Of a stretch of DNA of 64,000 bases, positions 1-60,077 are shown one piece after another. The notes beneath the pieces were generated by a model. The model saw only the letters and a list, made by a program, of their open reading frames with translations, had not been told where the DNA came from and searched no databases. The translations under genes and the position numbers were made by a program. Source of the stretch: Branchiostoma floridae (taxonomy: Eukaryota; Chordata; Leptocardii; Amphioxiformes; Branchiostomatidae); assembly GCF_000003815.2 (NCBI RefSeq), contig NC_049992.1:4848481-4912480 (forward strand), written 5' to 3'. The stretch's first letter is position 1; every line of letters starts with the position of its first letter.

Positions 1-186
1 GACTTTTGTAGGCAAGGCATCGGAAGTCTCACTGCTGTTAGTAAATGGCACATACATTGGGGTCGAGTCGATGACTACGAACTCTTCAAATGCCGAGTTG
101 TTTTCTTCATAGAATGTCGTCTTCCATGGAGTACTGGTTTCCAGGATCATCGTGCCATTTTGTTGCAGCTTTGAAGCAAGTGCAGC
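1..186 (-). CDS. Gene D stalk exon (partial)
   Basis: This is the extracellular juxtamembrane stalk exon. It starts after an AG acceptor at 187-188 and is open for 62 codons to the window edge. It carries the family motifs [22 protein letters not shown] and PFTNSS, with several N-glycosylation sequons (NGT, NNS, NSS). The equivalent exons in genes A and C are 205 nt, so about 19 nt are missing off-window. The exon has no cysteine and is Ser/Thr/Asn rich, as expected for a glycosylated spacer. Confidence 0.85.
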
Positions 187-935
187 CTACGTTTAGGAAC
201 ACAGATTTATCCATAAAGCTAAGGGCACAACCCACCGTACGTGCAAATACGTGCTGTCTGCGTGCCAAAACGTGGGCAATCTTTGGGGATCCGTAAGTGG
301 TAAGTACCGCCTCCGCACGAACTTGTAATGGAATCCGACGGATTTTGGAGCATGCAGACACGCCGTAGAACTTTACGTGCAGGCAAAACTTTGTGTGCCA
401 TCGGGCTGCGGAATCGCCCCCTACGGAGGGCCAAGTGTTGCAAAATTATACACACACAAATCGCGCGCATCACACAAACATAGCGCAAGTGCAACACACA
501 CACACAACCCCAGATTCCAACACACACACACACAAATCACACGCATCACACAAACATAGCGCAAATGCAACACACACACATAACGCCACTTTTGTTTCGC
601 ACACACAACTCCAGATTCCAACACAAACACACACAACCACACACACACACAACCACAGTACCACTTCTGTCTGATACACTCATATCTCACAGATTCTTGT
701 TCAATCATACATCTCCCCCCCCCCCCCCCTCCGTTACTTTAACAACGTTCAAGATAAAGGTAGTTATCTGGTATGAATGGAGATGTATGCATACATTGTT
801 GGAAACGAATGTGGATTCATAACCAGCTACAAAATTCAACGGAAGCTGTACTGTTCATACCGTACAGCCAGATAAATAAGAAGATGTCAAGTTCAACATT
901 CATTCATCGATGCATGATACCACCCAAATACACAA

Positions 936-991
<56 letters not shown>

Positions 992-3900
992 TCACACACA
1001 CACACACGCGCGCGCGCACACACACAACTACTCATGCATCAAACAGCTGCGCAACTTGCAGCACGTACACTCAGGGTCTGGCATGTGTGTGTGTCTGTAT
1101 GTTTGTGTTTGCATTAATTATTGCTTTTGCGTTCCTCAGTTAACACTAAAAGCATGACTCCTTATTTCAACAAGTTCAAGGACAAATAAAAGACAGAAAG
1201 GCTATCTCACCCACTGCCCAATAAATGCATTTATTGGGCCGCGAAAACGTTCGATACAGGTGTTCCGGACCGGGTGATACTTTTCTGTATCGCATGGGGT
1301 CTAAGTTGCTGTTCGGTTACAATTTTTTGTCCGAGGACACAACATTTTCTCAACTTCTGGTGCATTTCGCATCAAAAGATATGTTTTCTCAGGTGGATAT
1401 GATATAAATAAAATACAACACGGTGTATTCCGTATCACCCGTGGTTCCAGCACGACCGCGGGAAGGATCACCCGACGGCCGAAAATTTATCCAACACATA
1501 CGCAAAGAAACACAATCACACGCACATACAAAGCCGTAAGACACACACACACACTGTGCCACTTGCAACACACACACACTCAGCGTCTGCCCAGTATGTG
1601 TGTNNNNNNNNNNNNNNNNNNNNNNNNNNNNNNNNNNNNNNNNNNNNNNNNNNNNNNNNNNNNNNNNNNNNNNNNNNNNNNNNNNNNNNNNNNNNNNNNN
1701 NNNNNNNNNNNNNNNNNNNNNNNNNNNNNNNNNNNNNNNNNNNNNNNNNNNNNNNNNNNNNNNNNNNNNNNNNNNNNNNNNNNNNNNNNNNNNNNNNNNN
1801 NNNNNNNNNNNNNNNNNNNNNNNNNNNNNNNNNNNNNNNNNNNNNNNNNNNNNNNNNNNNNNNNNNNNNNNNNNNNNNNNNNNNNNNNNNNNNNNNNNNN
1901 NNNNNNNNNNNNNNNNNNNNNNNNNTTGATACAAAAATCCCACAAACACACACACACTCATAAACACAAACACACACACACACACCAGGATATACACAAC
2001 ACACACACTGCGCTCACAGCAACACACACACACACAAGGTCTGTCCGACGTGTGTGTTGTATCTCGCTGTGTGTGTGTGCATTTTTACTTCAGTGTGCGT
2101 GTTGTACTGGTATCTGTGCGGTGATTATATTGATATAGTTGATTTTGCATTCCAGTCTGTTAAGGTCATAATTGGTATCAACTGACGTTCAACAAAGAGT
2201 TTCACGTCATGACCATTATCTTTCATTGTGTAATTCATTCGCAAGTGAACAGCGACTGTAACCGTATATATATAACTAGCAAGAGGCCTGGGCGGAAGCT
2301 AGAGTAGCTGTATTGTACAGCCAGATGTAGATCTATGCCAGGATGACAAATTCAAGGGTACATAAAAGACGGCAATGGTGACTCATCCATTCAACAATAA
2401 ATATACAATATATCTATTCAACAAGCACACACACATGCAGGTACACAATCTCACACTCACAGACAGCACACACACACACACACACACAGCGCCCACTACA
2501 ACACACACACACACAGGGCCTGCTCGACATGTGTGTGTTGAAATTCGCCCAGTGTTTTTGTATGTTTTTACTAGAATGTGTGCATACAATGGATTACATT
2601 GTTCTTTTCAATTTTACAATCCTCGGTTCATGCCAGAACTGATATTATTGAATTTGGAGTACCTATAGTTAAACAGTGAGTATTACGTCATCAGCAGTAT
2701 GTTTATTATACTTAGGTGATTTACACACGAGTCTATAGCTAGCGAGGCTAGCATNNNNNNNNNNNNNNNNNNNNNNNNNNNNNNNNNNNNNNNNNNNNNN
2801 NNNNNNNNNNNNNNNNNNNNNNNNNNNNNNNNNNNNNNNNNNNNNNNNNNNNNNTGTGTGCATTTTGACTTCGTGCGCGTGTTTTGGGGAAATGATTAAA
2901 ATTGATCTTGATTTTCATTCTGTTTATGTTGTAATTGGTATCAACTGACGTTTAACAATGAGTTTAACGTCACGACCATCATCTTTGTGTAATTCATTCG
3001 CAAGTGTATGAACACTGCGACCATACCACGGTGTGAATTGCAAGAGGCCTGGGCGGAACCTAGGTGGAGTAGCTGTATTGTACAGCAAGATGAACGTGAA
3101 AATGACAAGTTCAAGATCAGGTAAAAGACGATAATTATTTCTCATTCATTCATCTATCAATAAATACCCGATACATTCATTCAACACATACACACACACA
3201 CATACATACACAATCACACACACACAAATTACGCAGCACACACGCTGCGCGCACTGCAACACACACACACACAGGGCCTGCCCGACGTGTGTGTGTGTTG
3301 TACTTCGCTGTGTGTGTGTGCATTTTGACTTCAGTGTGCGTGTTTTACTGGTATTAATCTGTGTGTGCGTGTTTTTGGGGAAATAATTGAAATTGATCTT
3401 GAGTTCCATTCTCTTTATGTCATAATTGGTATCAACTGACGTTTAACATTGAGTTTAACGTCACGACCATCATCTTTGTGTAATTTACACATTCGCAAGT
3501 GTATGAACGCTACGACCATACCACGGTGTAAATAGCAAGAGGCCTGGGTGGAACCTAGAGTAGCTGTATTGTACAGCAAGATGAACGCGAAAATGACAAG
3601 TTCAAGGGCACATAGAAGACGATAATGGTGTTTTCCACTCATCAATAAATTCACGATACATTCATTCAAAACACACACACACACACACGCACACATACAT
3701 GTACACTATCACACGCACACAAAGTCTTACGCAGCACACACACACTGCGCTCAGTAAAGCACACACACACAGGGCCTGCTCGACATGTGTGTGTTGCAAT
3801 TCGCTCAGTGTGTGTGTGTATGTTTTGATTCCAGTGTGTATGTCAGTTCGTCTGAGTGTGTGCGTGCAATGAATTACATTCATCTTTTCAACTTTGCATT

Positions 3901-6900
3901 CGTAGCTTTATGTCATAACTGATGTTATTACAGTACCTAAAGTTAAACAATGAGTATTACGTCATCAGCACTATGTTTATTATAATTAGGTGATTTACTA
4001 AAGGTGATTTACACTCGAGTCTATAGCTGGCGAGGCTACCATGGCGTAAGTAGCAAAACGGGCTAAACCTCTACTAGGAGCTGTATGTTAACGCCAGATA
4101 AATGAAAAGAGACACATAAAAGACCGCAATCATATCTCACTCAATAAATCATAAAAGATCTACGAGAAACTTATTCAACGCACACACGGATAGATAATCA
4201 CGCAAACACATCCACACAAACACACATACACAATCACACACACACACAATGTCTTACGCGTCACACACACTGCGGGCACTGCAACACACACACTCAGGGC
4301 CTGCCCGACATGTGTGTGTGTGTTGTACTTCGCTGTGTGTGTGCGTGCATTTTGACTTCAGTGTGTGTGTTTTTCGTGGTATTTGTGTGCGCGTGTTTGG
4401 GGGGAAATAGTTAAAATTGATCTTGAGTTCCATTCTGTTTATGTCATAATTGGTATCAACTGACGTTTAACAATTAGTTTTACGCCATGACCATCATCTT
4501 TGTGTAATTCATTCGCATTCGCAAGTGTTTGAACACTGCGACCATACCACGGTGTATATAGCAAGAGGCCTGGGTGGAACCTAGAGTAGCTGTATTGTAC
4601 AGCAAGATGAACGTAAAAATGACAAGTTCAAGTGCACGTAAAAGATGATAATGGGGTCTAATTCATCCATCAATAGATACCCGATACATTCATTCAACAC
4701 ATACATACACAATCACACACACACACACAAAGTCCTACGCATCACACACACTGCGCGCACTGCAACACACACACACGTACAGGGCCTACCAGACATGTGT
4801 GTGTGTTGTACTTCGCTGTGTGTGTGTGCATTTTGACTTCAGTGTGCGTGTTGTACTGGTATCTGTGTGCGCGTGTTTTGTGGGAAATAATTAAAATTGA
4901 TCATGATGTCCATTCTGTTTATGTCATAATTGGTATCAACTGACGTTTAACATTGAGTTTCACGTCATGACCGTCATCTTTGTGTCATTCATTTGCATTC
5001 ACAAGTGCTTGAACACTGCGACCATACCACGGTGTAAATAGCAAGAGGCCTGGGCGGAACCTAGGTGAAGTAGCTGTATTGTACAGCAAGATGAATGCGA
5101 AAATGACAAGTTCAAGATCACGTAAGAGACGATAATGGTGTCTCATTCACCCATCAATAAATACCCAAATACATTCATTGAACACACACACAAAAACATC
5201 ACAATCACAAACACACAAAGTCTTTCGCAGCACACACACTGCGCGCACTGCAACACACACACACAGGGCCTGCCCGACATGTGTGTGTGTGTGTTGTACC
5301 TCGCTGTGTGTGTGTGTATTTGGTCTTCAGTATGCGTGTTGTACTGGTATCTGTGTGCGTGTGTTTTTGGGGAAAAAATTAAAATTGATCTTGAGTAGAT
5401 TCTGTTTATGTCATAATTGGTATCAACTGACGTTTAACATTGAGTTTTACGTCATGACCATCATCTTTGTGTAATTCATTCACAAGTGTTTGAACACTGC
5501 GACCATAACACGGTGTTTTAAAATAGCAAGAGGCCTGGGTGGAACCTAGAGTAGCTGTATTGTACATCAAGATGATCGCTACATTGATAAGTTCAAGATC
5601 ACGTAAAAGACGATAATGGGGTCTAATTCATCCATCAATAAATACCCGATACATTCATTCAACACACACACACAAACACATACACAATCACACACACACA
5701 CAAAGTCTTACGCAGCACACACACTGCGCGCATCACAACACACACACACACATGGCCTGCCCGAAATGTGTGTCTGTGTTGTACCTCGCTGTGTGTTTCT
5801 GTATTTTGACTTCAGTGTGCGTGTTGTACTGGCATCTGTGTGCGCGTAGTTTTGGGGAAATAATTTTAAATGACATTGAGTTCCATTCTGTTTATGTCAT
5901 AATTGGTATCAACTGACATTCAACAATGAGTTTTAGGCCATGAACATCATCTTTGTGTAATTCATTCGCAAGTGTTTGAACACTGCGACCATACAACGGT
6001 GTTTTAAAATAGCAAGAGGCCTGGGTGGAACCTAGAGTAGCTGTATTGTACAGCAAGATGAACGCGAAAATGACAAGTTCAAGGACACGTAAAAGACGAT
6101 AATGGGGTCTGATTCATCCATCAATAAATACCCGATACATTCATTCAACACACACACACAAATACACAATCACACACACACAAAGTTTTACGCATCACAC
6201 ACACTGCGCGCACCACAACACACAGACACAGGGCCTGCCCGACATGTGTGTGTGTGTTGTACTTCCCTGTGTGTGTGTGCATTTTGACTTCAGTGTGCGT
6301 GTTGTACTGGTATCTGTGTGCGCGTGTTTTTGGGGAAATAATTAAAATTGACCTTGAGTTCCATTCTGTTTATGTCATAATTGGTATCAACTGACGTTTA
6401 ACAATGAGTTTTACGTCATGACCATCATATTTGTGTAATTCATTCGCAAGTGTTTGAACACTACGACCATACCACGGTGTAAATAGCAAGAGGCCTGGGC
6501 GTAACCTAGAGTAGCTGTATTGTACAGCAAGATGAACGTTGACAAGTTTAAGATCACGTAAAAGACGATATATAATGGTTTCTCATTCATCCATCAACAA
6601 ATACCCGATACATTCATTCAACACGCACTCACACATACACAATCACACACACATGTACACAAAGTCTTACGCAGCACACACACTGCGCTCACTGCAACAC
6701 ACACACACAGGGCCTGCCCGACGTGTGTGTGTGTGTGTTGTACCTCGCTGTGTGTGTGTGCATTTTGACTTCAGTGTGCGTGTTGTACTGGTATCTGTAT
6801 GTGTGTGTTTTTGGGGAAATAATTAAAATTGACCTTGAGTTCCATTCTGTTTATGTCATAATTGGTATCAACTGACGTTTAACATTGAGTTTTACGTTAT

Positions 6901-7339
6901 GACCATCATCTTTGTGTAATTCATTCGCAAGTGTTTGAACACTGCGACCATAACACGGTGTAAATAGCAAGAGGCCTGTGCGGAACCTAGAGTAGCTGTA
7001 TTGTACAGCAAGATGAACGCTACACTGACAAGTTGAAGGGCACATAAAAGACGATTATGGTGTCTCATTCATCCATCAATAAATACCCGATACATTCATT
7101 CAAGACTCACACACAAATACACAATCACACACACACACACCGACAGTCTTACGCAGCACACACACTGCGCTCACTGCAACACACACACAGGGCCTGCCCG
7201 ACGTGTGTGTGTGTGTGTGTTGTTTTTCGCTGTGTGTGTGTGTATTTTGACTTCAGTGTGCGTGTTTTTGCTGGTATTCCTGCGCGTGTGTGGGGAAGGA
7301 TCGATTATCAAATATATGTCTATAATTGATTTTCCAGAC

Positions 7340-7396
<57 letters not shown>

Positions 7397-10300
7397 CTAT
7401 ATGAATCATATATGATTACGTAATGAGTACTATCTTTACTAATACTATATTGATAATGTGATTTATACCTGAGTCTATGGTTAGCGATAGTGGCTGTATG
7501 GCCATATTTCCTAGAGGTTTTTTACAGCCAGATTAATGCCAAGTTGACAAGTTCAAGACCACATAAAAGAAGGCAATCGCATCACCCCCATCAGTCACAA
7601 AATGATATACTTTATACTATAAACTTATCCAACGCACACGCAGATACACAATCACACATACTCGCGTACACAGCACACACACACACTGCGCGCACTACAG
7701 CACACACACACAGGGCCTGCCCGACATGTGTGTGCTGCAATTCACTCACTGTGTGTGTGTGTGTATGTTTGGACTCTAGTGTGTGTATATCTGCGTTTGT
7801 GTGTGTGCGTACAAGAAGTTGCTTTGTTCTTTCCAACTTTGCATCTTGTATTGTCAAACCTGGCTGGCGTACTTCAAGAAAAATGACAAAATAGGGAGCC
7901 CGATAAAAACGACTAAAAGAACGTTTAAAAAACAGCCGGAGCCTAACCTCTGCTTGGAGAGTGTTGAAGCCGCCAACTTCACGCATTCTTTACAGGAAGC
8001 GACAAACAAATGCATCCGCTCGCTTTGGTCATTAGGGCGGTTATTGTTCAGTAATTTTATTTGTTTCGATCAAGGACGTTATAGAGATTCGATCAAGGAC
8101 GTTATAGAGATTCATATAACGTCCTTGGCTCGATTTAAAAGGGTCTTACAATTTTATCATCATTGTTATTCATTGTATCCAACTTTGTAACCAACTTTGT
8201 AACCAACTTTGTATCAAGGAAGAAATTGAACAATCATTATTAAGTTTTTATCTGCGAGGCTGGGGACTGAGAGATGGGTAAACAATCTGGTAATCCTCAC
8301 CCCAAAAACAATGACAGTGTGTTGGCAACAAGGTGTTATAAAACTTGAAACAAATTTTACACAAGGTTGTGAAGATATGTGCCAGGGTTATGAATGAGAA
8401 CAAAAGGACAATAATGAATGTACGAGTAGCTTGTAACCGTTTGTATTTTGCAGCGGAAAGGGCGGAGTAGTACTAGATCCACATAGGTCCTTTTTTATTC
8501 TCCTTGCTCCAATAATCTAACTGATTGCATGGTACGCTGAGCTCCCCGGAGAAATTTGGCACCTTTGACGATTAGCACGGAGGTGCAAACTTTCCGCATT
8601 CATCAGGCCACGTTGGCTTCATAATACGGATGACGTCCGAGCGCACATCAATTTTCGGACATAAATGCCAAAATGAATAACAAAGTAAAAGAAGATGTTG
8701 AAGAACAAAAATAAAAAATCTCCAGATGGGCACGTAATACGCACACAGTGCTTCATCATTTGTTCACGACCTTCACGACCACTTCGAATTGAAGATTTGT
8801 TAAAATCACCAACCTCCTTGAAATCACAGAACCCACTAATCATTAAAGAAGTGGGACTTTTCATCAGCCACTGCCTCCAAAGAAGAAGTCAAACCTCCCA
8901 GTAAAGAATGTAGAAACATGTAACGTTACATAGATAGCTGACGTGTGTGTATATAGAATAGACACTTGTTACTTTTTACTGTCTGTATCATTGCAATTAG
9001 CCTACGGGCATGGATTTGCAAATAAACAAATTAATTATAATGACTGCCACTTTTTTCTTTCGGCAGTTTCGCATATACACATCAGTTATGGCGTTCCCAT
9101 AGGATTCCATCAATACGATCAAATCAACATGGCCTAATAAGTGCCGACAAACGATTCCCCGCTCGTTTGGGTCATTCAATGCTTCATTTACAAAGTCAGC
9201 ATTTTTGTCTCCCGTGCTATCGTAAAAAATAGAATGAACATAAACAAAATAGAACTCAAGATCAACTTTCACTATTTCCCACAAAACACGCACACACAAA
9301 TACCAGTAAAAACACTCACACTGAAGTCAAAATGCACAAACACACAGTGAAGTACAACACACACACACATGTCGGGCAGGCCATGTGTGTGTGTGTTGCA
9401 CAGAGCGCAGTGTGTGTGCTGCGTAAGACTTGCGACTGCGTGTGATTGTGCATTTGTGTGTGAGTCTTGAATGAATGTATCGGGTATTAATTGATGGATG
9501 AATGAGACACCATTATTGTCTTTTAAGTGATCTTGAAATTGTCAATGTAGCGATCATCTTGCTGTACAATACAGTTACTCTAGGTTCCGCCCAGGCCTCT
9601 TCTATTTTAGAACACCGTGTTATGGTCGCAGTGCTCAAACCCTTGCGAATGAATTACACAAAGATGATGGTCATAACCAAGTGTTTTAACCTCCTTGTCA
9701 TAACGTAAAACTCAATGTTAAACATCAGTTGATACCAATTATGACATAAACAGAATGGAACTCAAGATCAATTTTGATTATTTCCCACAAAACACGCGCA
9801 CACAGATACCAGTACAACACGTGCACGCACACTGAAGTCAAAATGCACACACACACACAGCGAGGTACAACACACACACACACACGTCGGGCAGGCCCTG
9901 AGTGTGTGTGTTGTGGTGCGCGCAGTGTGTGTGCTGCGTAAGACTTTGTGTGTGTGTGATTGTGTATGAGTGTGTGTGTGTGTGTTGAATGAATGTATCG
10001 GGTATTTATTGATGGATGAATAAGACACCATTATCGTCTTTTACGTGTCCTTGAACTTTCGCGTTCATCTTGCTGTACAATACAGCTACTCTAGGTTCCG
10101 CCCAGGCCTCTTGCTATTTACACCGTGATATGGTCGCAGTGTTCAAACACTTGCAAATGCGAATGAATTATACAAAGATGATGGTAATAACGTAAAACTC
10201 ATCGTTAAACGTCAGTTGATACCAATTATGACATAAACAGAATGGAACTCAAGATCAATATAATTATTTCCTCAAAAACGCGCGCACAGATACCAGTACA

Positions 10301-13300
10301 ACACACACACTGAAGTCAAATTACGCACACACACAGCGAAGTACAAAACACACACACGTCGGGCAGGCCCTGTGTGTGTGTTGCAGTGCGCGCAGTGTAA
10401 GACTTTGTGTGTGTGTGATTGTGAATGTGTTCGTGTGTGTTTGAATGAATNNNNNNNNNNNNNNNNNNNNNNNNNNNNNNNNNNNNNNNNNNNNNNNNNN
10501 NNNNNNNNNNNNNNNNNNNNNNNNNNNNNNNNNNNNNNNNNNNNNNNNNNNNNNNNNNNNNNNNNNNNNNNNNNNNNNNNNNNNNNNNNNNNNNNNNNNN
10601 NNNNNNNNNNNNNNNNNNNNNNNNNNNNNNNNNNNNNNNNNNNNNNNNNNNNNNNNNNNNNNNNNNNNNNNNNNNNNNNNNNNNNNNNNNNNNNNNNNNN
10701 NNNNNNNNNTGGACATGATGATCAATCTTAATTTTTTCCCACAAAACACGCGCACACAGATACCAGCACAACACGCACACTGAAGTCAAAATGCACACAC
10801 ACACAGCGAAGTACAACACACACACACATGACGGGCAGGCCCTGAGTGTGTGTGTTGCAGTGCGCGCAGTGTGTGTGATGCGTAAGACATTGTGTGTGTG
10901 TGTGTGATTGTGTATGTGTGTTTGTGTGGATGTGTTTGCGTGATTATCTACCCGTGTGTGCGTTGAATAAGTTTCTCGTAGATCTTTTATGATTTATTGA
11001 GTGAGATATGATTGCGGTCTTTTATGTGTCTCTTTTCATTTATCTGGCGTTAACATACAGCTCCTAGTAGAGGTTCAGCCCGTTTTGCTACTTACGCCAT
11101 GGTAGCCTCGCCAGCTATAGACTCGAGTGTAAATCACCTTTAGTAAATCACCTAATTATAGTAAACATAGTTCTGATGACGTAATACTCATTGTTTAACT
11201 TTAGGTACTGTAATAACATCAGTTATGACATAAAGCTACGAATGCAAAGTTGAAAAGATGAATGTAATTCATTGCACGCACACACTCAGACGAAGAGACA
11301 TACACACTGGAATCAAAACATACACACACACACTGAGCGAATTGCAACACACACATGTCGAGCAGGCCCTGTGTGTGTGTGCTTTACTGAGCGCAGTGTG
11401 TGTGTGCTGCGTAAGACTTTGTGTGCGTGTGATAGTGTACATGTATGTGTGCGTGTGTGTGTGTGTGTGTGTTTTGAATGAATGTATCGTGAATTTATTG
11501 ATGAATGGAAAACACCATTATCGTCTTCTATGTGCCCNNNNNNNNNNNNNNNNNNNNNNNNNNNNNNNNNNNNNNNNNNNNNNNNNNNNNNNNNNNNNNN
11601 NNNNNNNNNNNNNNNNNNNNNNNNNNNNNNNNNNNNNNNNNNNNNNNNNNNNNNNNNNNNNNNNNNNNNNNNNNNNNNNNNNNNNNNNNNNNNNNNNNNN
11701 NNNNNNNNNNNNNNNNNNNNNNNNNNNNNNNNNNNNNNNNNNNNNNNNNNNNNNNNNNNNNNNNNNNNNNNNNNNNNNNNNNNNNNNNNNNNNNNNNNNN
11801 NNNNNNNNNNNNNNNNNNNNNNNNNNNNNNNNNNNNNNNNNNNNNNNNNNNNNNNNNNNNNNNNNNNNNNNNNNGTGTGTGTGTTGCAGTGCGCGCAGCG
11901 TGTGTGCTGCGTAATTTGTGTGTGTGTGATTGTGTATGTATGTGTGTGTGTGTATGTGTTGAATGAATGTATCGGGTATTTATTGATAGATGAATGAATG
12001 AGAAATAATTATCGTCTTTTACCTGATCTTGAACTTGTCATTTTCACGTTCATCTTGCTGTACAATACAGCTACTCCACTTAGGTTCCGCCCAGGCCTCT
12101 TGCAATTCACACCGTGGTATGGTCGCAGTGTTCATACACTTGCGAATGAATTACACAAAGATGATGGTCGTGACGTTAAACTCATTGTTAAACGTCAGTT
12201 GATACCAATTACAACATAAACAGAATGGAACTAAAGATCAATTTTAATCATTTCCCCAAAACACGCGCACTGAAGTCAAAATGCACACAAACACAGCGAA
12301 GTACAACACACACACACACGTCGGGAAGGCCCTGTGTGTGTGTGCGTTGCAGTGCGCGCAGTGTGTGTGCTGCGCAAGACTTTGTGTGTGTGTGATTGTG
12401 AATGTGTTTGTGTGTGTTGAATGAAAGAATCGGGTATTTATTGATGGATGAATGAGACACCATTATCGTATTTTACGTGTCCTTGAACTTCTCATTTTCG
12501 CGTTCATCTTGCTGTACAATACAGCTGTACTCTAGTTTCCGTCCAGGCCTCTTGATATTTACACCGTGGTATGGTCGCAGTGTATTACACAAAGATGGCT
12601 GTCGTGACGTTAAACTTATTGTTAAACGTCAGTTGATACCAATTATGCCATAAACAGAATGGAACTCAAGACCAATTTTAATTATTTCCCCAAAACACGC
12701 ACACAGATACCAGTACAACACGCACACTGAAGTAAAAATGCACACANNNNNNNNNNNNNNNNNNNNNNNNNNNNNNNNNNNNNNNNNNNNNNNNNNNNNN
12801 NNNNNNNNNNNNNNNNNNNNNNNNNNNNNNNNNNNNNNNNNNNNNNNNNNNNNNNNNNNNNNNNNNNNNNNNNNNNAGTTTATCGTACATCTTTTATGAT
12901 TTATGGAGGGAGATAGGATTGCCGTCTTTTATGTTTCTCCTGAACTTGTTATCTTCTCATTCATCTGGCTGTATAATACAGGTATAGATTCGCTAGATTT
13001 ATCCCGTTTTGCTTCTTACACCATGCTAGCCTCGCTAGCTATAGACTCGTGTGTAAATCACCTAAGTATAATAAACATACTGCTGATGACGTAATACTCA
13101 CTGTTTAACTATAGGTACTTCAAATTCAATAATATCAGTTCTGGCATGAACCGAGGATTGTAAAATTGAAAAGAACAATGTAATCCATTGTATGCACACA
13201 TTCTAGTAAAAACATACAAAAACACTGGGCGAATTTCAACACACACATGTCGAGCAGGCCCTGTGTGTGTGTGTGTTGTAGTGGGCGCTGTGTGTGTGTG

Positions 13301-16300
13301 TGTGTGTGTGCTGTCTGTGAGTGTGAGATTGTGTACCTGCATGTGTGTGTGCTTGTTGAATAGATATATTGTATATTTATTGTTGAATGGATGAGTCACC
13401 ATTGCCGTCTTTTATGTACCCTTGAATTTGTCATCCTGGCATAGATCTACATCTGGCTGTACAATACAGCTACTCTAGCTTCCGCCCAGGCCTCTTGCTA
13501 GTTATATATATACGGTTACAGTCGCTGTTCACTTGCGAATGAATTACACAATGAAAGAAAATGGTCATGACGTGAAACTCTTTGTTGAACGTCAGTTGAT
13601 ACCAATTATGACCTTAACAGACTGGAATGCAAAATCAACTATATCAATATAATCACCGCACAGATACCAGTACAACACGCACACTGAAGTAAAAATGCAC
13701 ACACACACAGCGAGATACAACACACACGTCGGACAGACCTTGTGTGTGTGTGTGTTGCTGTGAGCGCAGTGTGTGTGTTGTGTATATCCTGGTGTGTGTG
13801 TGTGTGTTTGTGTTTATGAGTGTGTGTGTGTTTGTGGGATTTTTGTATCAAATGTACGTGTTCGTTGGATAAATATATCCTATATTCCTTTCTTAATGGG
13901 TGAACTACCATTGCCGTCTATTATATGCCCATGTACTTGTCGTCTCCTCATCTAACTGGCTGTAAGAAACCCTTTTGCTATCTACACTGGGATGCTATTG
14001 CTGTTTAGGGTATGAAACAACCAAAGAAAGATAATGGTGAGGACGTAAAACTCATCGTCAAACTACAGGTAATAATATAAATAATATCACTACTGGAACG
14101 CAATCGCAATAAGGTCAAATTGAATATAATTCATTGCACGCAAACACACACACATACTGGAGGCAACACACACACACACATACTGGGCAGACGCTGAGTG
14201 TGTGTGTGTTGCAAGTGGCACAGTGTGTGTGTGTGTCTTACGGCTTTGTATGTGCGTGTGATTGTGTTTCTTTGCGTATGTGTTGGATAAATTTTCGGCC
14301 GTCGGGTGATCCTTCCCGCGGTCGTGCTGGAACCACGGGTGATACGGAATACACCGTGTTGTATTTTATTTATATCATATCCACCTGAGAAAACATATCT
14401 TTTGATGCGAAATGCACCAGAAGTTGAGAAAATGTTGTGTCCTCGGACAAAAAATTGTAACCGAACAGCAACTTAGACCCCATGCGATACAGAAAAGTAT
14501 CACCCGGTCCGGAACACCTGTATCGAACGTTTTCGCGGCCCAATAAATGCATTTATTGGGCAGTGGGTGAGATAGCCTTTCTGTCTTTTATTTGTCCTTG
14601 AACTTGTTGAAATAAGGAGTCATGCTTTTAGTGTTAACTGAGGAACGCAAAAGCAATAATTAATGCAAACACAAACATACAGACACACACACATGCCAGA
14701 CCCTGAGTGTACGTGTTGCAAGTTGCGCAGCTGTTTGATGCATGAGTAGTTGTGTGTGTGCGCGCGCGCGCGTGTGTGTGTGTGTGTGAGATTGTGTGTG
14801 TGTGTGTGTGTGTGTGTGAGAGATTGTGTATTTGGGTGGTATCATGCATCGATGAATGAATGTTGAACTTGACATCTTCTCATTTATCTGGCTGTACGGT
14901 ATGAACTCCGTTGAATTTTGTAGCTGGTTATGAATCCACATTCGTTTCCAATAATATATGCATACATCTCCATTCATACCAGATAACTACCTTTATCTTG
15001 AACGTTGTTAAAGTAACGGAGGGGGGGGGGGGGGATGTATGATTGAACAAGAATCTGTGAGATATGAGTGTAACAGACAGAAGTGGTACTGTGGTTGTGT
15101 GTGTGTGGTTGTGTGTGTTTGTGTTGGAATCTGGAGTTGTGTGTGCGAAACAGAAATGGCGTTATGTGGGGGTGTTGGATTTACCCCTATTTTGGGTGAA
15201 GCNNNNNNNNNNNNNNNNNNNNNNNNNNNNNNNNNNNNNNNNNNNNNNNNNNNNNNNNNNNNNNNNNNNNNNNNNNNNNNNNNNNNNNNNNNNNNNNNNN
15301 NNAGATTTATCCGTAAGGTAAGTTGACTCATCCAAACCAGTAGAAAATGTCGCATTATGTGATTTATAAGATACTGCTACTTATGATAATACCCCCGTTG
15401 CAGACTTGACCGAGTATTTTTGTCACCCATAGTTGTGCGATTGTATGCTGTGTTCTTGTTGCTTTTGCCCTGGCCTGATTTAAATGGTGATCTTTGATGA
15501 TCTTTATTTATTTGCATGTTATTGCCCTCATAGGATAAATGCAGTGATTCGATAGTATTACGTGAAATATTATGTAGACTAGATGCTATTACAATTGCTA
15601 AAAGTGCAACAACTGAATAGCAACAATTAAAAAAACATCAACTCCCAGAGACGTCTGCAATGGATAATCCAAATATGATCAATTGGACCTTTAATCAAGA
15701 GTTCCTAGCTTACCCTCCCATCGGAAGTGCTCAGGAAGTGAGTTGCCAGGATGCCGGCGGCGACAACTGATGCTATGAACAGAAGTCCACATCCCATTGC
15801 AAGCCAGTAAAGTCTGCTGAATTTCCATTTACTCCAAATTTCCCGGACACGTACTGAGGTAACGGAGGCAAACGTCAGCAAGGATTGAAAAACGGTAGCA
15901 TCCTTCTAAAGGTCTGTTTGACCCACAGCCCCTCAAATAGCCGAACAGCCTTTGTCGCCATGGCAACACGCGTTTTAGAGCCATTTTGCCAGATGTCAAA
16001 ATGTAGATACTGTAAATGCAGAAATGTTCGCGGTGGATTAATGTTCGCGGTTTTCGCGGCGGCCGCTTCACCGCGAATTTCAAACCACCGCGAACATTTT
16101 TCCATAACAGTAAGAGACTACAGTGCATGGTGCTACCGCAAATTAAAAACAACCGCGAAAAGTTCATTTTCCTGCTACCGCGAAATCAAATCCCCGTGAA
16201 CTTAAATGCATTTACAGTATTGTCGAAGGTTAGGTTTTGCCTGGCGTTAAATTCGATGTACATATGTCATCTTAGTATAAAATATTTTCTTCCAAATTCA

Positions 16301-20417: not shown

Positions 20418-23400
20418 CTGTCAAAAAAATAACACAGCAATTAGGGTACAATCATGTACATTAGATGACCATATTCCCCGCAATAGTACTCTTTTTTCAT
20501 TTCACACAAAGTAAAAATTTCTTCGTCTTTTATGCAGATCACGTAATATGGCAACGCTTATTTTATGACTAATTGATTGAAAATTAATTAAATTAATTGA
20601 CTATGGAAATTTCTTTGTTCTCCAAGACAGTGAAGATAAAAAAACTAAAGATAGTTTTCTTTAGATAGATATTGATGAAAAGGAATAGAAACACAGTGAC
20701 GATAACATTTCAGCTATCTTACTCCAAAAAAAAAGGAAGAAGCACGCACCTTGGAATAGACTGCGGCGCAGTTCTCTCCCTTGAAAAACGAGACAAGAAG
20801 AGTGTTACTTGGCTCCCCCCGGGCCCAGTTTGTGTAGCCAACAGGTGATTCATCTGTCCACTTCCATTGTCCAGCTTCTTTACGCAGACCCAGCCAGATT
20901 AATGGCTCAGCCCTTTTATCAGGAACTGCAATCAAAGGACAACAGTCTGTTACTTTAGTTGCAACCTCCGACGACTCTGGAGTAAAGGCTTTTGTCTTTG
21001 CTTCTTTTCCAGCGTTGCACGTGGCTAATTTATCAAACCAAAGTGAATGTAAGTAAAGCGAATGTAGAAAAGTTTTAATGATGGACCCAAGTCTAAGGAA
21101 ATATTGCATGTTCGGTTAACACAAGGACTATACATTACTTTGTATACAAGACCTTTGTCATTCCTTGAAGGATGAGATAGCTTCTCATTCATATAATAAT
21201 AATTGAATGTTATATGGCAAATTTCAGCTAAAAAAAGACGCAAAGTTTTAGTGGTCCTGCTTCAGAGTATTTTCACATTGACCCAATCATTATGATCTTG
21301 TTTCTTGTTTACCATTATCTTCCGTTTCGTCTGTATGCGTTCAACTAATACCCTATTATGATTCTTTATGCATATATTCAGTGATGGGAGAGATATGATA
21401 AGGAATGGCTGCGTGATTTGCAAACCTAAAAGTTACAACATTTACGTGCAAAAAACTGATACCCACATTTCGAGAGCAGATTTGCAAAATAGTTGTTCTC
21501 GGCCTGGTCGTTGATAGAGACAAGACTTGCGCCGTGTTGCCTGCATCGTGAGCTCGCTGTAGACCAGCTGACTTTGTCTGTCATCAGTTTGTAGCAGTGG
21601 TTGTTGTATTTGCTCCACTCACTGGGGCACTGTACAGCTGTAGTAATCGGTAATAGGATGGGATAAGATTTCAGTGGTTAGATTTGTGATTCTCACACAA
21701 GGAAAGTCATTATGAATTTAATTCACATTCTTGCCCGTGGGCTAAATGCAGGTAAAATGAAATATTACAGACCAAAAATTATAGGAACAAGTGTCAACTC
21801 TAGTCTAAAGGCTAACTCCAGATTATAAGTTATTCGGTTTGTAGACTTCTTTTTTCAAGACAGTGGAAGGCGAATAATCCCCCATTTCCTGTAATGAGTG
21901 CGTTTTGTGATATGAGAGAATTGTATTCTATTTGTCAGTTAAGGTGGAAAAATTGGGTAGAATTTATTGGCCTAAGCTCTTTAAACAGCTCATTACCTAA
22001 CCGCGGCCGGACACACTGTGGAGGGCAGTATGCAGACGGCAAGTAATGACACCAAGCATTTTGTTTCGGACTTTGCATCTTCTGCTATAATAAATAACAC
22101 GCGACACAGACGACGTTACATATTCTGTTCAATTTTACTTCGTTCGTACTTATAAAACTGTGCACTATTCACTAGAACGTCTAGGCACAACGTTGTACTA
22201 TGCGATAAAATTGCTGATGGAGGCTGGAGGTTGCAAAACGTTCATATAACAATATAAAAAAAAGAGAACTCACCATTCTGACAGTTCTGTCCAGTCCATC
22301 CTTGTGAGCAGGTACATTTGTAGCCACCATCTTTGTTCACACAGCGTCCATTTTGGCATGGGTTTCTGGTACACTCGTCAATGTCTGTGTGATACGCAAA
22401 AATATCTTGTACATGAACTACAAATTTGAAACTGTTTTAGAGGTTCAATACTTGATACATTGAAATCAGATATGTATAATATATATGCATATTAGAAGAA
22501 ATAGATATGGAAATAAAAGAGATAAATATGGTTTGCCCCTGTACAGAATTTGAATATGAACTCACCTTGCTGACAGTTCTGTCCGGTCCATCCAGGTGAG
22601 CAGGTACATTTGTAGCCACCATCTTTGTTCACACAGCGTCCATTTTGGCATGGGTTTCTGGTACACTCGTCAATGTCTGTATGATACGCAAAAATATCTT
22701 GTACATGAACTACAAATTTGAAACTCTTTTAGAGGTTCAATACTTGATACATTGAAATCAGATATGTATAATATATATACATATTAGAAGAAATAGATAT
22801 GGAAATAAAAGAGATAAATATGGTTTGCCCCTGTACAGAATTTGAATATGAACTCACCTTGCTGACAGTTCTGTCCGGTCCATCCATGTGAGCAGGTACA
22901 TTTGTAGCCGCCATCTTTGTTCACGCAGCGTCCATTTTGGCACGGTTTCCTGGTACACTCATCCAGGTCTTTGTAAGAAGCTAAATGAAAAAGAAAAACT
23001 AGACCCTTAGCATTAATTCAAAAAGAGTATCACTAACAAAATACTAGTAGAGAGCTTTGGACATGATGAGGCTAACAAAGGGTAAAACTCTCAAACTAAC
23101 ATTACTTACCAGTGGTTGACAGAAATGTGACTTTTATAGGCAAGGCATCGGAAGTCACATTGCTGTTAGTAAATGGCACATACGTTGGAGTCGAGTCAAT
23201 GACTGCTATCTCGTCAAATGCCGAGTTGTTTTCTTCATAGAATGCTGTCTTCAATGGAGTACTGGGTTCCAGGATCATCGTGCCATTTTGTTTCAGCTTT
23301 GAAGCAAGTGCCACCTACGTTTAGGAACACACATTTATCCATAAGGTGATGCATACAAACCATTAAGTGATTTATAAGAAACTGTTACTAATAAAATCCC

Positions 23401-25433
23401 CTTTGCAGACTTGACCGGGTATTTTTGTCACCCAAAGCTTCATGATTGCTTGAAAAATATCAACTCAATCCTAGTGACGTCTGCAAAGTATATATAAAGC
23501 ACGTATGGCACGTATGACCACTCGGCCCACGTGAACAAAAGTTATTATCTTACCCTCCCATCGAAAGTGATCTGTGTTGCCATGATGCCAGCGATGACAA
23601 CTGCTGCAACGACCAGAAGTCCACATCCCATTGCAAGCCAACAAACTCTGCTGAATTTCCATTTACTCCAAATTTCCACGACACGTTCTGAGATAAAACA
23701 GGTAACAGAGACAAACGTCAGTAAGGATTGAACAAAGGTAGCATCCATTTAAGAATCTGTTTGGCCAACAACCCCTCAAATAGCCAAACACCCTTTGTCG
23801 CCATGGCAACACGCGTTTTAGAGCCATTTTGCCAGATGTAAAAATGTAGATATTGGCCAAGGTTAAGTTTTGCATGACGTTAAATTCAATGTACAATTCA
23901 TAATTATAGACATATGAAATATCTATGTAACTGTAAGATATAGAATATTTTTTTATTCATTAACACATGACAAGGACAATGTGGCGCTCCACTCAAGTTA
24001 TAAAAACCTATTTTAACAGCGCCACATAACAAAATACAATGAATAAATGAACTCAGATAATCAACAGCAACATAGAATAGGTTCAGAGTGGAAAATGTAG
24101 TTTTGCGCTACGTTTTATATCTGCCAAACTAAAAATAGTTCTATCAAGTATTCTTGTGTTCAGGTGTTCACCTTTCCGTCGACAGTCAAATGTATGGTAG
24201 CAAAACTTTGCTTGCTATTGTTAAGTTGTTCCGGTGTATATCATTTTATCAATGTATTTATTTATTTTTTCCATCACAGTGTACGGTATGATGAACGGTA
24301 TGCCATTCCCTTTCATTCACCCTTTTAGTGCCACCTTCAAAAAATCATAACAGACTTCTAAAACAAACATTCAATAAAATTTTATACAAAGGAAGAAGTA
24401 ACTTTTCAGTTGCTGAAAATGCCAAAACAAAATGTTTTTCTGACACAACTTTTTTTCAGATATGGACCTTTGTTGTCGTTTGATGGCTAATTAATTGTCC
24501 ATGCAGATATTTACTCTATAGCGACGAAGAGTGATGAGAAATCAATCTCTTTCAGTCAATTTTCAAAGTTGAAAACATATTTGAAATTTACGTAACAGTG
24601 TCCCTTGTTTGTGTGTCTACAATACGCTATAAAACTGTTTTTTTATGATAGTACATTAGCCTCTAGTCCAGCTTTGCAAGCTTTGGTCCGCTCCCAGCGG
24701 TAGCTAATAATGCTGAATTCCAGGCTTATTGTATACAATACAATGCAATACAATGCAAAGAATTTAAATGTTGTATTTAACGCTGTAACATACCTTTAGC
24801 CCTGTATGCAAAGCTGACTTCCTTAGGATCTTTGTAAGCATCCTCTGGTTTGTCGTAGTCGTGGGAACGAGACTCCTCCTCATATGCTTTGTTTACTTCC
24901 TCAGGCACTTTGTAGCCGTAACAATCCTCTGGGTCTTTGTAGTAATGGGAGCAATGACCTTCCTTATACCCCTCACTGACTTCTTCAGCCTCTCGGTACC
25001 CGTAAGTGTGTTCTGATTCATGTCCCGAACACACCACCACGTGATCTCCGACGTTAAGGTATCGAGGCTTGTCGGTGTGAATGCCAGGAGCGGAATCATA
25101 CGGGCCTGCTTCCGCCTGTTCTCCGACGATGGTGTGTTCATATGCATGCTTCCCACGATAGACAGCCTTGCTTCGGATTTTGAGATCTTTGTCAGCGATG
25201 GAGGAGGATAACTCTTTATTTACTTTCTGGGCATGTTTCCCACGTGTTGGAGTGGGTGTGTATATATTAGGCACTGAGGGTTGATGTCCTGAGCTGCTCT
25301 TTGGGGCGGTCACATCTTTCTCTTTGGTATTTTTCAGTGCCTTCTGAAACTTTGAGCTCGGTGTTGTGACGCCCACACTTTCCCTTTTTGTGTGCTCTTG
25401 TTCCGACGGCGGCGTGGTCTCGGTTGTCGCCAT
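20316..25433 (-). CDS. Gene C: complete type II transmembrane protein with 3 EGF domains and a C-type lectin domain
   Basis: Exons in coding order: 24794-25433, 23554-23687, 23110-23314, 22858-22968, 22566-22676, 22274-22384, 21467-21637, 20750-20925, 20316-20417. They sum to 1761 nt in one frame, 586 aa plus TAA. Order: cytoplasmic tail (about 1-213), transmembrane segment (about 225-250), stalk to about 326, three calcium-binding-type EGFs (about 327-437), C-type lectin domain to the end. Inferred role: surface pattern-recognition or adhesion receptor. It is the cleanest family member here and the best template for the others. The lectin site reads EPS instead of EPN but keeps WND, so sugar binding may be altered. 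Confidence 0.85.
20750..20925 (-). CDS. Gene C lectin domain exon 2
   Basis: 176-nt exon, donor AAG|GTGCGT. It encodes PLIWLGLRK (the WIGL element), [20 protein letters not shown] and [10 protein letters not shown]. The residue after GEP is Ser where paralogues A and B have Asn, and the loop after it is longer than in B. EPN is the mannose-type signature, so this copy departs from it. Confidence 0.88.
21467..21637 (-). CDS. Gene C lectin domain exon 1
   Basis: 171-nt exon, phase 1 at both ends. It encodes [19 protein letters not shown], then [18 protein letters not shown] and [14 protein letters not shown]. The CPxxW, HCYKL and GAxLxSI elements are the N-terminal half of a long-form C-type lectin domain. 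Confidence 0.87.
22274..22968 (-). CDS. Gene C EGF exon array (3 exons)
   Basis: Three 111-nt phase 1-1 exons: 22858-22968, 22566-22676 and 22274-22384. Each encodes a 37-residue EGF of the form D-[LI]-D-E-C-x4[26 protein letters not shown] with all six cysteines, the calcium-binding N-terminal D-x-D-E and the C-x-N-x4-Y-x-C hydroxylation consensus. The second and third exons, with their upstream introns, form a 292-bp direct repeat that is almost identical, so one copy is recent. Confidence 0.92.
23110..23314 (-). CDS. Gene C stalk exon
   Basis: 205-nt exon encoding [18 protein letters not shown] and onward, with [11 protein letters not shown] and [12 protein letters not shown]. It has several N-glycosylation sequons and no cysteine. 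It begins in phase 0 and ends in phase 1, as in gene A. Confidence 0.87.
23554..23687 (-). CDS. Gene C transmembrane exon
   Basis: 134-nt exon between cag/AACGTG and AGG|GTAAG, two codons shorter than in paralogues. It encodes [13 protein letters not shown], then [20 protein letters not shown], then [12 protein letters not shown] single hydrophobic span with basic residues before it fits type II orientation. Confidence 0.9.
24794..25433 (-). CDS. Gene C cytoplasmic-tail exon with start codon
   Basis: The ATG at 25433 lies two bases after the acceptor. It encodes 213 aa plus one base. It starts [14 protein letters not shown] and contains [45 protein letters not shown] and two 28-residue modules beginning YGYREAEEV and YGYKVPEEV, then [15 protein letters not shown]. 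There are three YxxP motifs (YKDP, YKVP, YKDP). The exon ends at AAAG|GTATGT. Confidence 0.88.
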
Positions 25434-29152: not shown

Positions 29153-32100
29153 CTGTGGGAAATGTTAGATACGAAACATGGTTACTTTATTCAGCACGAC
29201 TCCTACACAGTCTCCCATGCAAAAAGCAAATTTTAAAAAGCACATGCTCTACTAATATTCAGAGATATCGTTACTTTTTTATGATAGAAGGGATCACTCA
29301 CCTTAGACCATATGTTCACACAGTCCTCTCCACCGTTCCAGAAATCGTTGTTAGGCTCACCATGGTCCCAATTCTGATAGCTGAATCGTGATCCATCATT
29401 CCACTTCCAAGCTCTCCCATTCTTACGAAGTCCAATCCAGACACCTTTATCAGGGGCTGTAGAGAAGTAAATGGAAATGATCTGTCTGTGAATAGTATCT
29501 GTTACAGCAGTACTATACTCATACTGCTCAACAGTCGTTATAAAAGTTATACATGGGAGATTTAACAACATTTTGAAAAAAAATCAAGTTCATACTACGT
29601 CGATGAAGGTTTGACATTCAGGTAATAAGATATTCCAAAAAGCAATTGCTCAAGCAAGTGGTTATGATTTTGGAAACGGTCAGACGTTTCAACTAACATC
29701 CACCATTCGTCAGTGACACTAAAATGTCCAATAGGAAACGTTGTATTGTAAGACAATTTTAAGCTAAAGGCAATTTGGATTCCAAGAGGAAATAAAAGGT
29801 AAGGAAAAGTCAAGCTGAAGACAAGTTTGGATTTCATCCATAGTTAGAGTATAAAAGACCTGTTTCTTCCAGATCACTTCAGTGTCACTGACGAAAACTA
29901 GTGGATGCCAGTTGAAACGTCTGACCGTGTCCAAATCATATCCAGTTGCCTGAGTAACTGCTTTTTGGAACAAGTCATGATCAATAATACTAATCTGTTG
30001 ATTCTCTAACGTCTCATATAATCTATCCTATAATCAACTTGACGACTGAGGCACCAGAAAAAAAATGGCCAAACAGTTCCCTCCACTAGGGGTGGGTACC
30101 GGTATGCTGCACAAAACCGATTTTTCTTATTGGACCGGTCCGGAAAAAACGGACCTAAAGAAAATTAGGTGGACCAGATGTTGGACCTATTGGAATAAGA
30201 ACAGATTACTTGATCAGGATTTCACACGATTTGGCGCTTGCAGGTCGACGAAAATAACAAGAGCGAAGTAGAGAGAATCATTTCTACCAAGTTCTACAGC
30301 CAATCGTACAGAGGCAGCTAGTCTTGTCTGATCTTAAAACGCCAGTGTGAGTCTAATACTCTACCAAATACATTTCTTTGTTGTAAAATAGACACATTTT
30401 TCACATACTGAATAAGGTCCCGGTTCAGGTCCGAACCTGGACCAGATCCTCTGGACCTGGACCGGACCTGGACCTGAATTTTCTGTACCGGTACCCACAC
30501 CTACCCTCCACTCTTCTCGGTTTTCTGGTCTTCTTAATGTTTTAACTAGTATCATGTCTGTCCAGTCTCTGATGTTATCCTCCCATCCTTTCAGTGCCTA
30601 CCCCTCTGTCTTTCTCCCTGGGTGGTTCCTTGTATGATAGTTTTGGCTCTTTCCGATGTCTCAGTGATGGAATTTTTTTATCACACTTTTTCTAAATCTT
30701 AGAAGCACCAAATTAGATGTATATTGTTGTGGAAAAAAATCAAATCTCTCAGACTAATTAAGGCCTTGTAACATTTAATCATCTGTTAACTACCCACCAT
30801 TAGAGATAAGACCTTTAATGAAGTAGTTCTCCTCCTTGCTTGTGATGGATGCCAGATAGGCACCATTTCTCCTACACCTGTATGCTGCATCATGCCAGGT
30901 GACTTTGTATCTCATTAAAACGTAGCATTTGTTGTTGTGTTCCCTCAATCCTCTTTGACATTTTTTGGCTGCAACGAAACAGTAAATGCAGTGAGCGAAC
31001 GCCAGATGGGCTTAGATGGTTGCAGTAAAGCATTGGCTCTAGAGCAGCTGACGTTGTCTCTAAAGTTACGCAACCTAATTACACAAGTTGGTCAAAGTGT
31101 AAAAATAAGAATGCAAATGCTAAGAATACTTCAAGTAAATAAAGGAACTATAAAATATAGATAACTCACCTTGCTTACAGTTCTGTCCAGTCCATCCAGG
31201 TGAGCAGGTGCATTTGTAGCCGCCATCTTTGTTCACACAGCGACCATGTTGGCATGGTTTCCTGCTACACTCGTTGATGTCTTCGTGTTAAAGAAAGAAA
31301 TATCATTAATAGATGTGCACATTACTGCAACAAGAGAGAGAGAGAGTAAAGAAAAGGAAGGATGAAAATTCGATAATGTTTGCAAAGTGTATGACAGCCA
31401 CGAAAAAAATCTATCACCTTCCTGACAGTTCTGTCCAGTCCATCCAGGTGAGCAGGCACATTTGTAGCCACCATCTTTGTTCACACAGCGTCCATGTTGG
31501 CATGGGTTCCTGGTGCACTCGTCAATGTCTGTGTAATTAATGACATATTGTGTGAATACTAGCTCAGTTTTAGATTTGAGATGCTGAATTTGTACGGATA
31601 GAAGAATGAGAACTAACCTCGCTGGCAGTTCTGTCAGAAAGCACAAGACAAGCTTTAGAAGTCTAGGTAATAACTTACCATGTTTACAGTTCTGTCCAGT
31701 CCATCCAGGTGAGCAGGTACATTTGTAGTTGCCATCTTTGTTCACACAGCGACCATGTTGGCATGGGTTCCTGGTACACTCGTCAATGTCTGTGTTATAC
31801 ATAAGATATTTTGCCATTTCTAACTCTGAGGGAGTCAATGTTAGATTAAAGATACACAATGTGACAGGACAAGACTAGAAGTCTAGGAAATAAATTACCT
31901 TGATCACAGGCCTGTCCAGTCCATCCAGGTGAGCAGGTACATTTGTAGCCATCATTTTTGTTCACACAGCGTCCATGTTGGCATGGGTTCTTGGTGCACT
32001 CGTCAATGTCTGTGTTATGCATAAACTATTTTGTCTTTTCTAACTCTGAGGGGTTCAATGTTAGATTGAAGATACACAATGTGACAGGACAAGACTAGCA

Positions 32101-41569: not shown

Positions 41570-43384
41570 CTGTGTGAAATGAAAGGGGTCCCGGACAGGG
41601 CTTTTTGGGTGTTTGAGGCCTACCCCTTCTAACTCCTGAAACTCTTAAACGACTCCTCATATGACCAGTAAGTGTTTAAAGAATGATGTATACATAATAC
41701 ATAATTTCTTAAAAGAAATAAAATTTGATGTTATTACGACGTAACATCACGTAGTTATGATGTCATCAATTTGAATGTATTGCCTGAAACCATGGAAAAA
41801 GGGTATTCTCAGAAAACTTACAGGTATTCTACAAACAAATGTAACACCAGTTGCACGTAACTGCAGAATTATAAAGTTTGGTACGAATTGTGTTGCCAAT
41901 AGTAACATCAAGGACGTCAAAATCACGTCTTAAGTGACATCATGCATATCTAAGATACAAGTTGGGCTCCGCCATTATATATCCACCACCTTGTATTTTC
42001 AGGAAATAATCGCTAAAGACAGCGGAAATAGACTAAAATCGTGTATAAAATTTTTTTTCGATAAAAAGATACCAGGTAGTTACAAACTCTGAGGTATAAT
42101 AAACTATTCTGGTTATATGGTCCACTATCTTGGATTTGGGCCAATAACGTCATCAACTTAGCAGTATTTTTTTTATATCTAACTATGTAAGATTTAGATA
42201 ACATGATGTTTTATTTGTGTAAGAAAAATAGCAGTAACATAGCAAATAACGTGAAAAAATATTGTTAGAATCGAAATTAGCGACTTTCGTCATAAATATT
42301 TGTCAACAAAAGGTTGCACGAAAAATAGTTTTCTAACTTTGTGAAATTGGTGCCAAGTAAATTAAAAAAAAAGCCTTGAATTTGGTAGCTCCAGCGTAGG
42401 CCGCTATGTAGTTATGCGACATGAAAGTTGGTGCAGTCCTCAAAAGACCACCCCCCCCCCTCCGTCTGAATAGGGTTAAACCTGCAACACACTTAGCTAC
42501 AACACCCATTGTTCTTCTCAAAGGTAATGACGATACGGATAATGTACGTGAATCTTGGCACCTTCTCGCCTTCCAGAACACAAGGGAAAAAAATATTCAT
42601 ATTTCGTCGAAAGTAGCTAGTCACGAACCACTATTTGATATTATATACTCGCAATTTGTACAATATCATATCATTATTGAATTGCCTAATATCACGTGAA
42701 TGGAATCTATGCACTTCATGCCTAAAACAAAAATATCAAAGGCATCTTTTTCTAAAGCCTAAGCTCACATTGCTAAGCTGCAGCGTCATTTGCCGCCATT
42801 AAATGTTGTTTCACAAAAGCAATACATACACAAAAATATTCTAGAGACAAAATCGAAAACGAACAAATTGATTCCACAATATACATATCGACTAGACGTC
42901 ATCTGGCATAAAACTCAAACCGGGTGACTTTTGGAAGACCAGACCAGAGAAATATGAAGTAACTTGCACATCGTCAGATTATATTAGCTCAAGCACTACT
43001 CTGCAAGCGCTAGGTTAGGCTCCGGCTGTTTTTTAACGTTTTTTAGTCGTTTTTGTCGGGCTTTCTATTTTGTCATTTTCCCTGAAGTACGCCAGCCAGA
43101 CGTTAGGTTCTGACACAGCAAGATAAAATACAAAATAGAAAGCCCGATAAAAAAGACTAAAAACAGCCGGAGCCTAACCTCTGCTTAGAGAGTACTCAAT
43201 CGCTACAATCTTTTTCTCCGCCTGCGTATTAAACTGCACCCACCCCGCTTATATCAACCAGAGAGTAACAAAGTTGCAGTCTTGGGGGGGGGGGAGTCAG
43301 GCGGTTTTATCAGAGAAAAAACAAGATCTAAAAAATATCAGAGAAAACATATCTATGGAAAGAAAATCCCAAAACTAGAAATAC
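41570..43384 (-). other. Gene B first intron
   Basis: 1.8 kb between the noncoding exon and the start exon. It contains the foldback MITE at 43013-43178, a poly-C run near 42450 and a poly-G run near 43286. Otherwise unique AT-rich DNA with no gene. Confidence 0.6.
43013..43178. mobile_element. Small foldback MITE
   Basis: Inverted repeats of about 50-60 bp: the left end starts ggttaggctccggctg and runs to gggctttctattttgt, and the right end is the near-complement ending cagccggagcctaacc. Total about 166 bp. A half-copy is in the loop of the giant palindrome (7858-7951). The target duplication is unclear. Confidence 0.75.
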
Positions 43385-59066: not shown

Positions 59067-59110
59067 CTCTTATCAAAGAAACCCGGCTCAAGGACCATAC
59101 CCAAATAAGG
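59067..59110 (-). promoter_or_regulatory. Gene A core promoter: CArG box and TATA-like box
   Basis: CCTTATTTGG at 59101-59110 and TTTGATAAGAG at about 59067-59077 on the minus strand, the same arrangement as B, C and D. An inverted repeat (59109-60050) begins right at the CArG box. Confidence 0.62.
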
Positions 59111-60050: not shown

Positions 60051-60077
60051 AGATATTCAGCTGAGATATATCCTATA

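Follow-up and report, generated by a model that had tools for sequence, protein, structure and literature searches.

The 64,000-bp stretch of the Branchiostoma floridae genome analysed here (hereafter the window) carries paralogous copies of a lectin gene. A C-type lectin domain (Pfam PF00059) is encoded in ORFs of the rightward copies (20714-21115 and 29233-29583); that of the copy at the left edge lies outside the window. The intron between two exons of this leftmost copy holds a region of about 15 kb with tandem repeats in inverted arrays. Six of the seven N runs of the window fall within this region (219-15302), where they occupy 1,248 of 15,084 positions. The region and its flanks comprise the following features:

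1-192, putative minus strand: left flank, exon-like (stalk exon of the preliminary description), common to three paralogous copies
203-218, no strand: last bases of the left flank, repeated at 15303-15318 with 2 differences
219-442, no strand: outer end of the left arm, not part of the array; candidate terminal domain without visible right-arm partner
443-2037, plus strand: outer left arm with CA-rich stretches, divergent unit pieces and one non-array stretch; includes the 322-N gap 1604-1925
2038-7844, plus strand: left array of ~475-525-bp units; contains the 100-N gap 2755-2854
7845-9233, no strand: middle domain (loop); 7860-7962 matches 42998-43099 at 89%
9234-10450, minus strand: inner right array, gapless with the loop and the left array
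10710-11537, minus strand: right-arm contig; mirrors 3606-4290 (9/685 mismatches), then steps to a different unit
11875-12746, minus strand: right-arm contig; 11875-12289 mirrors 2855-3268 (4/414 mismatches), the remainder falls in the left 100-N gap
12877-15202, minus strand: right-arm contig; mirrors 543-1603 (20/1028 mismatches) and 1926-2754 (2/829)
15203-15302, no strand: 100-N gap hiding the right terminus
15303-15872, putative minus strand: right flank contig with intron and the transmembrane exon of the preliminary description, from paralogue alignments
N gaps (length): 1604-1925 (322), 2755-2854 (100), 10451-10709 (259), 11538-11874 (337), 12747-12876 (130), 15203-15302 (100)

The left flank is 82-92% identical to 23129-23344, 54087-54263 and 36650-36816, and the right flank 80-83% identical to 23536-23743, 37302-37541 and 54807-54977. 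The labels of stalk and transmembrane exon appear to fit these alignments. In paralogue B the sequence 1-216 corresponds to 23129-23344 (92% identity) and the right flank resumes from 23361; paralogue C has the same order, with 36650-36816 followed by 36831-36983. The flank alignments therefore agree with the earlier claim of an intron uninterrupted in both paralogues, and since the two flanks nearly adjoin there, the break at ~217-222 interrupts a short intron. That position supports the left boundary of the span 219-15302 proposed in the preliminary description, but coordinate 15302 is merely the end of a 100-N gap and the right outer end is absent from the sequence. The right contig begins with AGATTTATCCGTAAGG and the left flank ends with AGATTTATCCATAAAG, of which the paralogues carry one copy. 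The 10 bp AGATTTATCC are exact at 203-212 and 15303-15312, and the likeness extends to 16 bp with 2 differences; the left bases 213-218 resemble the empty site of paralogue B. Judged by these junctions, the near-copy could have arisen by target duplication or could mark an allele that lacks the insertion, and the latter would fit at least as well. The left junction also fits an element that starts with GGGCACAACCC and made a 3-bp duplication, TAA; under that reading the right contig must be the uninserted allele.

Other repeated or coding features are found further to the right. Direct tandem arrays of EGF-domain exons, 70-84% alike among the matches listed, lie at 31161-36478 and 51849-53930. 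The ORF 31233-31874 (minus strand) has EGF and calcium-binding EGF Pfam matches, and ORF 32757-33086 (minus strand), beside the EGF array, a WSC-like match below the Pfam cut-off (21.6 versus 27.8 bits). The GC-rich segment 38212-40543, with long ORFs and a weak RVT_1 match (E 0.0079, 16.4 bits; cut-off 29.6), looks like a possible retroelement remnant. A small hairpin-like element at 59108-60074 is formed by an inverted pair (59108-59473 and 59716-60074) that is 88% alike. Rfam models gave 0 matches at gathering scores over the whole window.

Comparison of the window against itself by blastn yielded minus-strand hits of up to 1,317 bp (E=0), with strong inverted similarity between 543-7291 and 9238-15202, and so bore out the long inverted arms of the preliminary description. 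Outside 1-15302 there are 11 inverted pairs at E≤1e-10, the longest of only 528 bp and 70%; set against these pairs, the lengths and E values of the self-hits rule out a chance origin of the arms. The tandem units of ~480 bp described earlier were likewise recovered, by TRF (period 481, 6.3 copies, 87% matches at 4220-7266) and by a profile built from six left units. The profile has 30 matches at E≤1e-5 (16 on the plus and 14 on the minus strand) spanning 842-14901 and none at this threshold in the remainder of the 64-kb window. At least two kinds of unit exist, of ~480 bp and ~523 bp, which are ~65-67% alike at aligned sites. The loop, for which 1.9 kb had been given, is corrected to ~1.39 kb (7845-9233), as unit homology ends at 7844 and ~9234. 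The inner ends of the two arms, compared by eye from the alignments, are within ~20 bp of the same unit phase. A left arm at 219-7844 and a right arm at 9234-15202, mostly made up of the tandem units, thus surround a middle domain, without gaps in 2855-10450 and with outer arms that rest on the scaffold.

The outer terminal sequence 219-442 is seen on the left only, the right end falling in a 100-N gap. Within the window it matches, itself excepted, only one segment of 13 bp at word size 7 and E≤1, and the end motif TAAGGGCACAACCCACCG at 220-237, allowing up to 3 mismatches, was found in the window once, at its own position. Neither the unit profile nor the end motif nor the self-comparison revealed a second copy of the element within the 64 kb. 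The transposase gene expected of an autonomous DNA transposon was not recognised in the loop, where the four overlapping ORFs of at least 90 aa match no Pfam family at E≤0.01. Exact copies of a 27-mer of the unit numbered 0 in viral_contigs, where eukaryote DNA is not expected. One unit folded as DNA has a z of -3.09, with 1 of 100 shuffles as stable; its long stem is made of TG and CA runs and was given no weight.

Two further repeats concern the loop. A 23-bp direct repeat in two exact copies (8065-8113) overlaps an imperfect 34-bp palindrome (8094-8127). The segment 42998-43193 is a short hairpin-like repeat with two inverted halves, one of which recurs in the loop at 7860-7962; it probably represents a small dispersed repeat family.

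The region is patched from several contigs, roughly its inner half being joined without gaps. The sole gapless piece, 2855-10450, runs from the left array through the loop and 1.2 kb into the right array. Because the turn-around lies inside this one contig it is independent of any gap; because no other piece is gapless, the full 15-kb structure is an inference of the assembly. The outer right arm consists of three contigs, with gaps between them, which follow the left arm in mirror image, unit for unit. The 322-N gap faces exactly 322 right-arm bases and the 337-N gap exactly 337 left-arm bases. Two exact agreements are hardly to be expected from mate-pair estimates, and both N runs therefore probably represent stretches whose length was known but which were placed only once, a situation compatible with both main explanations discussed below. 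At the 100-N gap 2755-2854 the right arm implies 733 bp, which makes this a gap of unknown size.

Over all 3095 aligned sites the outer arms show 49 differences. A trimmed core, without 543-602 and everything beyond 4290, differs at 26 of ~2929 positions (~0.9%); the trimming removes contig-end noise and the unit step, and thereby favours the reading as a real foldback. Mismatches cluster by contig ends, with 545-592 holding 9 of 20 and 4308-4428 holding 14 of 23. A binomial test against 3.2% gives P ~1e-8 for all sites and 6e-17 for the trimmed ones, values that assume independent sites and the host's rate and serve as a guide only. The non-array stretch 1200-1500 is mirrored at 301 of 301 positions. 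Contig 10710-11537 has ~1.3% mismatch to the left arm before its step; past it, the likeness is 0.895 with the collinear left unit and 0.947 with the one that follows. Across the 259-N gap a unit of 472 bp results, in phase. Inner right units of the gapless contig are 84-89% alike to left units in best alignments with gaps counted, and 91-93% alike to the nearest left units at aligned sites.

A tree of the units was computed from 25 of the 30 pieces, five short ones being dropped. Six outer pairs of left (L) and right (R) units correspond one-to-one in mirrored order: L842/R14901, L2038/R13739, L2516/R13261, L2855/R12332, L3274/R11538 and L3772/R11369. Five of them are 98.5-99.8% alike; L842/R14901, over a CA run, reaches 86.7% in the multiple alignment. 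Two inner pairs extend the mirrored order at greater divergence, L6710/R9898 with 92.6% and L4782/R10842 with 94.7%, the latter figure resting on 131 sites with one unit skipped; their tree support is 0.967 and 0.968, respectively. Inner units of the two arms altogether pair at 5-9% divergence or not at all. No close partner was found in the tree for R9382 and R10370, for R12746 and R14181 (both opposite left gaps), or for the left units L4297, L5266, L5754, L6231 and L7190. Between L3772/R11369 and the loop, seven full units and a partial one are counted on the left and three and a partial one on the right, a deficit of ~four in the right arm.

Foldback elements such as FB of D. melanogaster, TU of sea urchin and FARE of Arabidopsis have long inverted repeats, with tandem repeats inside them in FB and TU. 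FB and TU are smaller than the present element, whereas the total size of some FARE copies may be comparable; the three were compared by description only.

Published precedents exist both for foldbacks whose arms are built of tandem repeats and for large inverted repeats in introns of amphioxus immune genes. Tetris of Drosophila virilis has a similar layout, with an outer flanking domain, an intermediate tandem-repeat domain and a non-coding middle (PMC4079207). It has no conserved ORF, and its allelic copies vary in the number of units. Tetris is unlike the present case in its arms of up to 1,735 bp, ~220-bp units and 8-10-bp target-site duplications (PMC4079207), compared with arms of 6-7.6 kb as assembled, ~480-bp units and a candidate 10-bp duplication that is within the Tetris size range. 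Galileo of D. mojavensis shares long inverted ends, which in one subfamily are lengthened by ~210-bp internal tandem repeats, and unequal repeat numbers in the two arms, for which recombination and conversion were proposed (PMC3573991). Its inverted ends reach ~1.26 kb, however, and it has a known transposase of the P superfamily, none being recognised here. The interpretation as a foldback element given in the preliminary description is partly supported, by a layout that matches Tetris (PMC4079207) and by a turn-around within a gapless contig. A foldback family would be a candidate status only, as the window shows no right end, clean target-site duplication, second copy or recognised transposase. 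The element is unnamed among the matches listed for the literature on amphioxus foldbacks, inverted repeats and satellites, which is weak evidence as subscription journals lie outside its scope.

At the amphioxus VCBP genes, which are of immune type, large inverted repeats and indels that depend on the haplotype lie between exons and are surrounded by errors of assembly, a setting that resembles the present one; there one inverted-repeat set consists of ribonucleotide reductase gene fragments, and the text at hand describes no foldback made of tandem units (PMC2632668). The divergence between two VCBP haplotypes is 7.6% at aligned sites. In the Brafl1 assembly, alleles at these loci were swapped, and inversions, artefactual fragmentation and a falsely duplicated gene pair occurred there as well (PMC2632668). 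The reassembly of B. floridae used ARACHNE on Sanger data and HaploMerger2 (PMC7269912). Heterozygosity in amphioxus is 3.2-4.2% (PMC12500494). In B. belcheri, SNP polymorphism is 4.39% and unevenly spread, and 65-77% of large indels apparently come from mobile elements (PMC4284660).

We favour, at about even odds, a genuine insertion of foldback type whose outer arms were homogenised through gene conversion. This reading starts from direct observations, namely a gapless contig that contains both inverted arrays and the loop, the mirrored outer unit order as assembled and the uninterrupted intron of the paralogues. A distinct possibility, which we do not favour and which takes up the head-to-head joining of haplotypes considered in the preliminary description, is that the contigs of 10710-15202 belong to another allele of the left outer arm and were reversed by a scaffolder misled by the similar, true inner right array, in which case the real insertion would be smaller or its right side unknown. 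Outer arms 97-99.8% alike at aligned sites, beside 84-89% in the best inner alignments, would agree with allelic contigs, as would the piling up of differences near contig ends (545-592; 4308-4428). The 322-N and 337-N gaps match the opposite arm in length, as might result from a single sequence that was entered at one place and masked with Ns at the other, and the Brafl1 errors at VCBP loci provide a precedent (PMC2632668). The right flank contig moreover starts with a near-copy of 203-218, an overlap of ~16 bp with 2 differences, so it may derive from the insertion-free allele. Against two alleles stands the outer mismatch, which is below the printed amphioxus rates (3.2-4.2%; 7.6% at VCBP) and was counted in favour of a real foldback; low mismatch is also compatible with alleles given the uneven local polymorphism of lancelets (PMC4284660). 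Contig 10710-11537 loses collinearity with the left arm within its own gapless sequence and is therefore not a plain second copy of it. A real right arm is also favoured by a gapless right array with units that are not close copies of any left unit, by the mirrored order continuing inward with growing divergence and by the in-phase unit across the 259-N gap; the nearly equal unit phase of the inner arm ends was counted on the same side. Points against it are the 86.7% likeness of the outer pair L842/R14901 and the match L4782/R10842, which could also be an allele. Inner units within one contig diverge by 7-9% and pairs across gaps by 0.2-2%, a difference that a real foldback needs conversion to explain.

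It is unlikely, in our judgement, that a local tandem array was inverted and duplicated in place, without transposition, to form a non-mobile satellite block. Confinement of all 30 unit matches of the window to the region would agree with such an origin, as would the lack of a clean duplication, second copy or recognised transposase; the exact mirroring of the non-array stretch 1200-1500 and a break at a single point of an intron uninterrupted in the paralogues speak against it. Palindromic chimaeric reads or clones, produced by fold-back in library making and assembled as true sequence, are a very improbable source. Head-to-head arms are the signature of this error, but it should produce arms that are almost identical where they turn, with no loop between them. 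This candidate was rejected, the arms being least alike at the turning point and separated by a 1.39-kb loop.

For the real foldback-type insertion, the following course may be envisaged. A non-autonomous DNA element would have arrived in the lectin-gene intron by transposition, possibly on one haplotype only, with a transposase supplied from elsewhere. Its arms would be inverted copies of an outer zone and ~480-bp tandem units around the 1.4-kb middle. The number of units may shift by unequal exchange, and gene conversion between the arms would keep their outer ~3.9 kb alike; the inner units may have drifted, with some being lost on the right.

If the structure is an artefact, it shows how a highly heterozygous genome could yield a false giant palindrome, with measurable marks in gaps as long as the facing arm, overlapping flanks and a step in divergence. 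If it is real, its arms would exceed those of Tetris and Galileo several-fold, and it would be a case of inter-arm conversion within the intron of a lectin-type gene. If transcribed, such an intron could fold as a multi-kilobase hairpin. A wider reading, which we consider rather improbable, is that a giant-armed foldback family of an invertebrate chordate inserts in immune-gene introns, has its arms homogenised by conversion and forms a pre-mRNA hairpin that may affect splicing of polymorphic lectin receptors.
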